Assembly: GCA_002938205.1 (NCBI GenBank)
Contig: PTKZ01000005.1
Span: 16,317-80,316, forward strand
Direction: 5' to 3'
From: Alphaproteobacteria bacterium MarineAlpha5_Bin5
Lineage (GTDB): Bacteria > Pseudomonadota > Alphaproteobacteria > HIMB59 > GCA-002718135
DNA length: 64,000 bases
This document shows, piece after piece, positions 59,001 through 61,492 of the stretch. How positions within the stretch are numbered: position 1 is the stretch's first letter; each line of letters starts with the position of its first letter. Both the position numbers and the translations under genes were made by a program. Below the pieces are notes generated by a model that was not told the DNA's origin, ran no database searches, and worked only from the letters and a program-made list of their open reading frames with translations.

Positions 59001-59332
59001 GCAAATAATATTATTTTTAAAGTTGATAAAGTTATTAAAAATATAAACACATAAGTGATTATATTAATTAATAATTTAATATAATTTCTACTGTCTCTTG
59101 AATAAATATAATCTTCTATAATTGTTTCACATCCAAGTTTTCCATGTATAAGCATTGCAATAATCATAATATAAAAAAGAAATACATTAAATATTGAGCT
59201 AAAAAAAAATATTACTTGATCATAGCTCATTGATATTAAAGAAATACTTTTATAAACAAACCAGAAAGTAAGTGGTATTAATATAAATGCTGTAATTCTT
59301 TGTACAATCCATTTCTTGGTATAGTTTTTCAT
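58997..59332 (-). CDS. sdhD: Succinate dehydrogenase membrane anchor subunit
   Basis: [42 protein letters not shown] overlap with sdhC makes 59332 the likely start rather than 59434. Confidence 0.85.
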
Positions 59333-59700
59333 AATAAAAACCAAACTAAAATTGAAGAAAGCATCGTTAAAAAAAGAACCATATATGCCGAAAAATATAC
59401 TGAATTCAAATCCATACCAATACCAAAAGACCAATAAAGATATCGCACTCCATTAAATAAGTGATAAAAAATTGTTATTGTCCAAATAAATAAAATGAAT
59501 CTAAAAAAAATGTTTGCTGATATAATTTCAAAAACAAAATAATAACTTGGCAATAATGCAAATAAGCAAAACCATAAGGCAATTAATATTGATCCAATAC
59601 TTAAACTAATTCCAGTAAATCTATGAAAAATAGAGAAAACGGAGGTTAAAATTTTTTTATAAATTGAAAGATGTGGGGATAAAGGTCGATTACTTCTCAT
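59329..59700 (-). CDS. sdhC: Succinate dehydrogenase cytochrome b556 subunit
   Basis: RPLSPHLSIYKKILTSVFSIFHRFTGISLS, YHLFNGVRYLYWSFG. Confidence 0.94.
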   Translation of the reverse strand: MRSNRPLSPHLSIYKKILTSVFSIFHRFTGISLSIGSILIALWFCLFALLPSYYFVFEIISANIFFRFILFIWTITIFYHLFNGVRYLYWSFGIGMDLNSVYFSAYMVLFLTMLSSILVWFLL

Positions 59701-59823: not shown

Positions 59824-59926
59824 TAATGGATATATTTTTTTTTTTTCCTTATTTTTAGCCAAAAAAGATAAATAAAAAAACGGTTATTTATTGAAAATTT
59901 ATTTAATTACTATTAATTTAAATAAA

Positions 59927-60074
59927 GCCGGATCTGAACTCTGTTTCTTTGCTTCGGAGGAACGCCAGGAAATATCAACCTTCATTCCCGCCGTTTGATG
60001 GTTGCTGAGTTTTTACTTAACTAGAGAAGTGTCTGCCAAGGTACAGGCTAGTAGAGTGTGGTTCGGCTTTTTTT
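59927..60074 (+). ncRNA. Candidate structured noncoding RNA, family unknown, ending in an intrinsic terminator-like U tract
   Basis: GCCGGATC pairs with GGTTCGGC across 141 nt, ACTCT/AGAGT extends it, internal hairpins GTTTCTTT-GCTTC-GGAGGAAC and GTCTG-CCAAGGTA-CAGGC, then TTTTTTT; no ORF; locally higher GC than neighbours. Confidence 0.6.
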
Positions 60075-60455
60075 ATTTTAAATTTTCTTCAAAAAAAATT
60101 TTCATTTTCTCAGCATGTTCATTTAGATATTTGAACATTGCATCAATATGATAGGCATTTGGCACTAACCAAAAACTTAATTTAATATTGTTTTCTTTTG
60201 ATGGAAAATAAACATTTTGCCAATTCTCCAAATGGTATTTTTCTGAAGGAAAGTTTTCACATAAAATACTTGATGTGTAGTTTTTAATTACATTTGCTTC
60301 AACTTTTGCGCTCTATGTGTTGGGAAGAGAGTTTTAATGTAGTCCACAGGTGTAATCCATATTCAAAATGCTTGCAGCAATATAAAAACCAATTCCAAAA
60401 TACACCATAAACGCAACTATGAAAAATGAACTAATAAATATTATAGTTTTTTCAT
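60073..60455 (-). pseudogene. Frame-disrupted ORF, hypothetical membrane-anchored protein
   Basis: ATG overlaps zapE stop (ATGA). Coherent protein needs three frame shifts: MKK/TIIFISSFFIVAFMVYFGIGFYIAASILNMDYT/PVDYIKTLFPTHRAQK/VEANVIKNYTSSILCENFPSEKYHLENWQNVYFPSKENNIKLSFWLVPNAYHIDAMFKYLNEHAEKMKIFFEENLK*. Confidence 0.55.
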
Positions 60456-61492
60456 TGTGAAGGTTTTATAATTGTCATTTCGTATAATCTACTTGCAGTT
60501 CTATCAAATTCTTTAGACATAGCTTTTATTCTGCATAATGAAGCAATTGGGGTTTCAGCTAATAAAACTACAGAACAATTTTGGTTATAAAGCATATCAA
60601 TTAAGCTAATAAAACGCCTGCATTGATCAGCTTTATCAATAGATAATTGTGGAACATTTTTAATAAAAATTAAACTAAAAATTTCTGCAATGTTTTTATA
60701 GTCTTCATGACCAAGATTGTTGTTACATAACTTTTCAAAACTACATAAAGCTACATTTGATGAACAAGTATCTATTACAAAACTTCTACTTTTTGTTTTA
60801 ATAGTTTTTGACATCAACGATGATGTATCAACAAGGCGTTCAAATAATTTATTAAATTCTTCGTTAGTATCATTATTTATAGGAGTAAAATAGGTTTTTG
60901 ACTGATTTAATGTCAATCTTCTATAATCTATATTATTACCAATCTTAATAAGATTATAATGCTCCATGATATAATTAATAAATGGAATAAAATCATTATG
61001 TTGTAAGCCTTCTTTGTACAAATCCTTAGGATGAAAATTAGAAGATACTATTATAAATATTTTATTTTTTTCAAATAATGTAAATATTTTTTTTATGATT
61101 AACGCATCTACAATATTAAAGATGTGCATTTCATCAATAAAAAGAATTTTAACATTTAATGAAATTTTTTTAATATATCTCTCTAGTTTTTTTTCTTTGT
61201 TATCCTTCGTATTTATTTTAGAATGCACTTCACTCATTAAATGATTGAAATGAATTTTCTTTCCAACTTTTGTAAATTGACAAATTAAGTTTAGCAAAAA
61301 TGTTTTTCCTGTGCCAACACTGCCATGAACATAAACTCCTTTCTTTTTGTTTTTTTTAAAAATTAATGATTTTTTATTTGAATTGATCCAAGTCCTACTA
61401 ACTTCCTTTAATAATTTTATCTGCTCTAAATCTTTTTTAATAAAATTATTGCTTACAAAACTTTCGTAATGATCAATTATGCTAAAACTCAT
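60452..61492 (-). CDS. zapE: Cell division protein ZapE / AFG1-like ATPase
   Basis: KGVYVHGSVGTGKTFLLNL, ILFIDEMHIFNIVDA, SRLYEM. Confidence 0.9.
   Translation of the reverse strand: MSFSIIDHYESFVSNNFIKKDLEQIKLLKEVSRTWINSNKKSLIFKKNKKKGVYVHGSVGTGKTFLLNLICQFTKVGKKIHFNHLMSEVHSKINTKDNKEKKLERYIKKISLNVKILFIDEMHIFNIVDALIIKKIFTLFEKNKIFIIVSSNFHPKDLYKEGLQHNDFIPFINYIMEHYNLIKIGNNIDYRRLTLNQSKTYFTPINNDTNEEFNKLFERLVDTSSLMSKTIKTKSRSFVIDTCSSNVALCSFEKLCNNNLGHEDYKNIAEIFSLIFIKNVPQLSIDKADQCRRFISLIDMLYNQNCSVVLLAETPIASLCRIKAMSKEFDRTASRLYEMTIIKPSQ

Follow-up and report, generated by a model that had tools for sequence, protein, structure and literature searches.

Between sdhC and zapE, the window (the whole 64,000-nt stretch of DNA analysed here) almost certainly carries a real stand-alone non-coding RNA gene that represents a new family. 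Its best overall explanation, to which we assign a probability of roughly one half, is a stand-alone, trans-acting structured RNA of about 141 nt that would be bound by a protein and belong to an undescribed family. The protein-binding mode itself is tentative, and we infer it from two things, the conservation pattern of the RNA and the absent Hfq. Judging from the genome searches, the RNA family does not extend beyond a single family of marine Alphaproteobacteria, and the clade appears to be HIMB59/AEGEAN-169-type bacterioplankton (compare PMC10308909).

The initial annotation had described positions 59927-60074 as an ORF-free segment less AT-rich than its flanks and as an unassigned structured RNA gene. 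Both descriptions hold. The segment contains no ORFs, and the GC content of the RNA is 48.2%. The 200 nt on its upstream side have 17.0% and those on its downstream side 24.5%, and the window as a whole has 30.5%; 99.8% of the window's 141-nt stretches are less GC-rich. In a shuffle test, the window RNA alone folded at -45.8 kcal/mol (z = -2.1), with 5 of 200 shuffles as good, and twelve members of the RNA family gave z values from -1.7 to -4.5. The assignment as a gene is borne out by the lack of an Rfam match together with conservation, covariation, strand and promoter evidence. The parts of the locus are as follows:

59891..59896, + strand: -35-like element TTGAAA; TTGAA(A/T) recurs upstream at a nearly constant spacing in 28 dereplicated relatives, within variable surrounding DNA
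59912..59917, + strand: -10-like element ATTAAT (TATAGT, TGTAAT or TATTAAT in relatives); the hexamer ends about 10 nt before P1
59927..60067, + strand: structured non-coding RNA gene, from P1 to P1', with homologous copies in 80 of the order's 162 genomes and a covarying fold
59927..59934, + strand: 5' strand of P1, GCCGGAUC, with C-G to U-A double changes
59936..59941, + strand: 5' strand of P2, GAACUC; can pair with GAG(U) over 4-9 bp in every one of the 49 distinct sequences
59944..59972, + strand: P3 hairpin, UUUCU..GCUUC-GGAG-GAACGC..AGGAAA, 99.5% of cells paired
59956-59959, + strand: invariant GGAG loop of P3
59976..60004, + strand: P4 hairpin, whose lower stem and apical pair covary
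59987-59993, + strand: near-invariant P4 loop, CCCGCCG
60007..60012, + strand: 3' strand of P2, GAGUUU, between P4 and P5; partner of (A)CUC
60021..60051, + strand: P5 hairpin, CUAG-AGAA-GUGUCU-GCCA-AGGUAC-AGG (or AAA)-CUAG, 100% of cells paired and almost invariant
60060..60067, + strand: 3' strand of P1, GGUUCGGC, which shares the double changes of its 5' partner
60068..60074, + strand: U7 run after P1, a possible 3' end

A blastn search recovered the segment in 22 other genomes within the genus, with identities of 78-81%. Covariance model R1 located exactly one copy per genome in 80 of the 162 genomes of the order, and the carriers cover each of the six genera in the window's family, with none in the sister family. 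Where listed completeness was at least 90%, the RNA was present in 10 of 10 genomes of this family, and R1 found none in ten genomes of the sister family. Covariance model R2, run with sensitive filters and no positive control in that run, gave no hit in any of 20 genomes from the sister family; that family's syntenic sdhC region, in which the neighbours differ, did not yield the RNA. The other 383 sampled alphaproteobacteria also lacked it, R2 matching only two family members among the 385 sampled. Of seven non-carrier genomes of the same genus that were checked, six lacked a proper sdhA in the assembly and one had it only as a fragment, which makes it probable that these assemblies simply miss the locus. 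When a collection covering 84,980 species was scanned with a sequence pattern, 93 loci came up, the marine alphaproteobacterial ones being from single-cell genomes, MarineAlpha5 bins and similar sources. The pattern matches in unrelated taxa that were scanned with the covariance models gave no model match, and viral contigs contributed two pattern matches only, both without model support. By this pattern search, the RNA is absent from the other bacteria and archaea of the collection. Sharing throughout the family implies that the RNA very likely does something important.

The 49 distinct sequences share a fold in which P1 closes the molecule, P2 encloses P3 and P4, and P5 follows. In these sequences 94.7% of the proposed pairs are formed, against 88.8% in shuffles (0 of 500 as good), the covariation score is 0.202 against 0.094 after shuffling, and pairing drops to at most 44% once the 3' side is slid. 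P1, the terminal stem GCCGGAUC/GGUUCGGC that had already been noticed in the window, is conserved, as are the two hairpins named with it (one UUUC-rich, one GUCUG...CAGGC). Its GCCGGAU/GUCCGGC pairing covaries, the most distant genus having GCUGAGU/ACUCAGC. In the relative L059 the model picked the wrong P1, and the GCCGGAU that fits its 3' UGUCCGGC sits 25 nt further upstream. The lower stem of P4 is paired in 46 of 49 sequences against 31.7 expected, with C-G, U-A, A-U and G-U at the ext1 pair and 0 of 500 shuffles as good, and the apical pair is formed in 47 of 49 against 35.7 expected, with A-U, U-G and U-A variants. P5 contains a tandem G-U/U-G.

One helix of the initial annotation, ACUCU/AGAGU, did not survive the comparison: a GAG partner occurs there in only 11 of the 49 sequences, which makes the helix wrong or at best species-specific. 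It is replaced by P2, in which (A)CUC pairs with the GAG(U) between P4 and P5, a pairing possible in all 49 sequences. P2 is mostly invariant, and a hand count found changes on one side only; the double changes that the automatic count gave for helix 2 stem mostly from subgroups being offset by one column in register. Conservation is too high for covariation in P2, in P5 and in most of P3. In the window, the P2 fold is near-isoenergetic with the minimum free energy structure (-44.4 against -45.8, a cost of 1.4 kcal/mol). RNAalifold returned it unprompted, from an alignment that had been fitted to the model and so favours this fold. The U7 run is present in the window as noted initially, but a large subgroup of relatives lacks it; no intrinsic terminator hairpin was found at the 3' end of the RNA, nor any unstructured seed region within it.

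Read on the + strand, the proposed pairs comprise 138 G-U cells against 2 A-C cells, which fixes this strand, because the G-U cells would become mismatches on the other. An A precedes the RNA at -1 in 23 of the 28 dereplicated relatives, which, together with the conserved -35/-10-like elements, argues for a transcription start at P1. The RNA would be transcribed from a sigma70-like promoter of its own, with the start at P1 or immediately before it. A hidden leader peptide after GGAGGAA was considered and rejected, as the start codon is not conserved and the near-identical L014 and L018 differ by 1-nt indels; such indels between close relatives, along with stops, speak against coding. At the level of sequence comparison, then, base-pair counts, covariation and the conserved promoter establish the strand and the fold and argue for a discrete start.

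The genes around the RNA lie on the opposite strand:

59329..59700, - strand: sdhC (PF01127), first gene of the divergent sdhCDAB operon and the constant neighbour by synteny
60073..60443, - strand: remnant of a convergent alpha/beta-hydrolase gene; amino acids 6-98 and 288-329 align and the middle is missing
60452..61492, - strand: zapE/AFG1-like ATPase (PF03969)

In 20 of 20 extended relatives from six genera the RNA occupies the same position, flanked by sdhC on one side and by the 3' end of the hydrolase gene on the other. It is separated from sdhC by 227 nt, lies on the opposite side of the gap and abuts the hydrolase stop codon. The interval had initially been described as sdhC-zapE. Both genes are indeed there, and the neighbour named zapE is an AFG1/ZapE ATPase, but the immediate neighbour in relatives is the alpha/beta-hydrolase gene, which has decayed in the window. 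This hydrolase (Pfam Peptidase_S9/Abhydrolase, about 330 aa) is intact in relatives such as L073 and L056; in the window, residues 99-287 are gone, the reading frame is interrupted and a 52-codon ORF is left. zapE stands beside the hydrolase gene in most relatives, and was not found in the 7-kb regions of L054, L058, L059 and L060 (G127, G132, G061, G133), some of whose ends may be cut. Since the neighbours on both sides lie on the other strand and none follows downstream on the RNA's own strand, the RNA is not a riboswitch or leader and has no cis target.

Searches against Rfam 15 (4227 families) gave no match at the gathering score in the window, so the RNA is not already described there. 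With the locus alone at E<=10, nothing convincing appeared in the RNA, and six divergent homologues had no match for it at E<=3; across these searches every hit was at chance level or a tRNA elsewhere. The early suggestion of a known family, 6S or a marine IMES type, therefore found no Rfam counterpart. The 6S model (RF00013) matched neither the RNA region nor the rest of its own genome at E<=10, nor any of 61 relatives (families f1 and f2) at E<=1, in a search that did match Caulobacter and E. coli but in which the model, not a very sensitive one, matched only 5 of 14 controls with the filters used. The proposed 6S-like architecture also fails, since the comparative fold is multi-branched and has no long hairpin with a large central single-stranded bubble; a 6S-like role is, on sequence grounds, neither shown nor excluded. 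tmRNA and SRP RNA have no match at the locus and are encoded elsewhere in the window's genome, so the RNA is neither of them. This genome (G000) holds two alphaproteobacterial tmRNA matches, at C33:4455-4752 and C55:12473-12762 (L171, L172), of 234 and 222 bits and both far over the cut-off, which represent either a real duplication or a mixed assembly. We found no account of the family in the open-access literature.

Neither Hfq nor CsrA was found in 21 relatives. With 6S undetected as well (61 relatives), the known riboregulator set of the order is notably reduced. A CsrA sponge of the CsrB/RsmZ type was rejected on the missing CsrA and on the single GGA loop without repeats, and an Hfq-dependent sRNA on the missing Hfq, the lack of a terminator hairpin and a U-run that is not universal. 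The locus does have what marks stand-alone structured ncRNA genes in general, namely a covarying fold, promoter-like elements of its own and independence from its neighbours.

How such an RNA might work can be outlined from its conserved parts. P1 would hold the ends together and give a compact, stable RNA, whose recognition surface may consist of the P3 loop GGAG, the P4 loop CCCGCCG and, in P5, the internal loop and the GCCA loop. The GGAGG of P3 could kiss the CCGCC of P4, a loop-loop contact possible with one A.G mismatch; both sequences are invariant, which makes covariation uninformative. The RNA would act in trans in a house-keeping-like manner, and its partner would most likely be a conserved protein, whether of the ribosome, RNA polymerase or a dedicated RNA-binding protein, as opposed to Hfq-assisted antisense pairing. 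A bolder version, which we regard as unlikely, is a new class of house-keeping RNA-protein particle in a clade without recognisable 6S, Hfq or CsrA: the RNA would be essential or nearly so, would have taken over global control of transcription or translation, and would present Shine-Dalgarno-like and anti-Shine-Dalgarno-like sequences through a P3-P4 kissing-loop fold.

An RNA that pairs with mRNAs through its C-rich and G-rich loops (CCCGCCG, GGAG, GCCA), independently of Hfq, is a possible but less probable reading. The loops are accessible and invariant, GGAGG is a perfect Shine-Dalgarno/anti-Shine-Dalgarno complement, and a stand-alone gene with its own promoter would suit a regulatory sRNA. 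However, Hfq was not detected, the RNA has neither a seed region nor a terminator hairpin, and CGGCGGG, the complement of the P4 loop, occurs nowhere else in the 64-kb window, such GC-rich sites being rare at 30% GC. Complementarity of the conserved loops to the rRNA operon was not clearly above shuffles. Pairing of the P4 loop with AACGGCGG, which we take to be 23S helix 68, was rejected: the site is present in the 23S of relatives, and the pairing is short, at chance level and not extended in other genera. Because the loops are invariant, the ends closed and a terminator hairpin lacking, we moderately favour a protein-bound RNA over an antisense one. It is improbable that the RNA is a functional 6S stand-in, or a 6S diverged beyond recognition, that binds RNA polymerase. 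The failure of RF00013 to match the relatives fits this idea, as do closed ends and a single copy, which suit an abundant RNA, but the branched fold speaks against it, the 6S model recovers few of its controls, and the sister family has neither 6S matches nor the RNA, so the missing 6S match is not specific to carriers.

Very little speaks for the two remaining readings. A cis element on the - strand, either a riboswitch-like leader of the sdhCDAB operon or a 3' UTR of the hydrolase gene, would account for the constant position between two - strand genes in all relatives examined; it is most improbable given the G-U pairs, the promoter-like elements conserved on the + strand and the distance to sdhC, and a riboswitch or cis leader was rejected on the strand evidence. 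That the segment folds by chance within a GC island, or serves as a bidirectional terminator for two convergent genes, is hardly credible. The modest z of -2.1 for the window sequence alone and the contact with the hydrolase stop codon might suggest it, but conservation across six genera with covariation already contradicts this reading, and a terminator needs neither three near-invariant hairpins nor a promoter.

The protein-bound, trans-acting RNA that we prefer would belong to a common ocean group, the HIMB59/AEGEAN-169-type bacterioplankton, whose gene regulation has hardly been explored. An RNA beside the sdh operon that is present once per genome throughout the family and is almost invariant, with Hfq, CsrA and 6S not found, points to an unrecognised regulator, and the covariance model and alignment allow it to be searched for in existing metatranscriptomes.

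Among known RNAs, 6S RNA is similar in size class, closed ends, stand-alone gene and single copy, and differs in that the RNA described here is multi-branched and without a 6S sequence or structure match in the window or the 61 relatives. Structured RNA candidates of 'Ca. Pelagibacter ubique', for instance the SAR11_0636 three-stem motif, were reported by Meyer et al. 2009 (PMC2704228). They too are GC-rich islands between genes, in a marine alphaproteobacterium with a streamlined genome, and the SAR11_0636 motif is thought to be separately transcribed, with a conserved stem in a three-stem junction. Their neighbours, however, are hypothetical proteins, rhtB, pntA and rnhB, and in a sequence comparison made through the Rfam scan only there was no match. 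Ms1 RNA of mycobacteria, which binds the RNA polymerase core (PMC4191392), is alike in idea as a lineage-specific structured RNA of bacteria without a recognised 6S; its hosts are unrelated. Yfr103 and other lineage-specific marine bacterial ncRNAs (PMC5069720) are also strongly structured, clade-restricted and of no known function, whereas Yfr103 is cyanobacterial, 290-328 nt long and multicopy. The alpha_tmRNA (RF01849) and the small SRP RNA (RF00169) are house-keeping RNAs of the same genome at other loci. The general kind, a stand-alone structured bacterial ncRNA, is already known, while the family itself is new and clade-specific.
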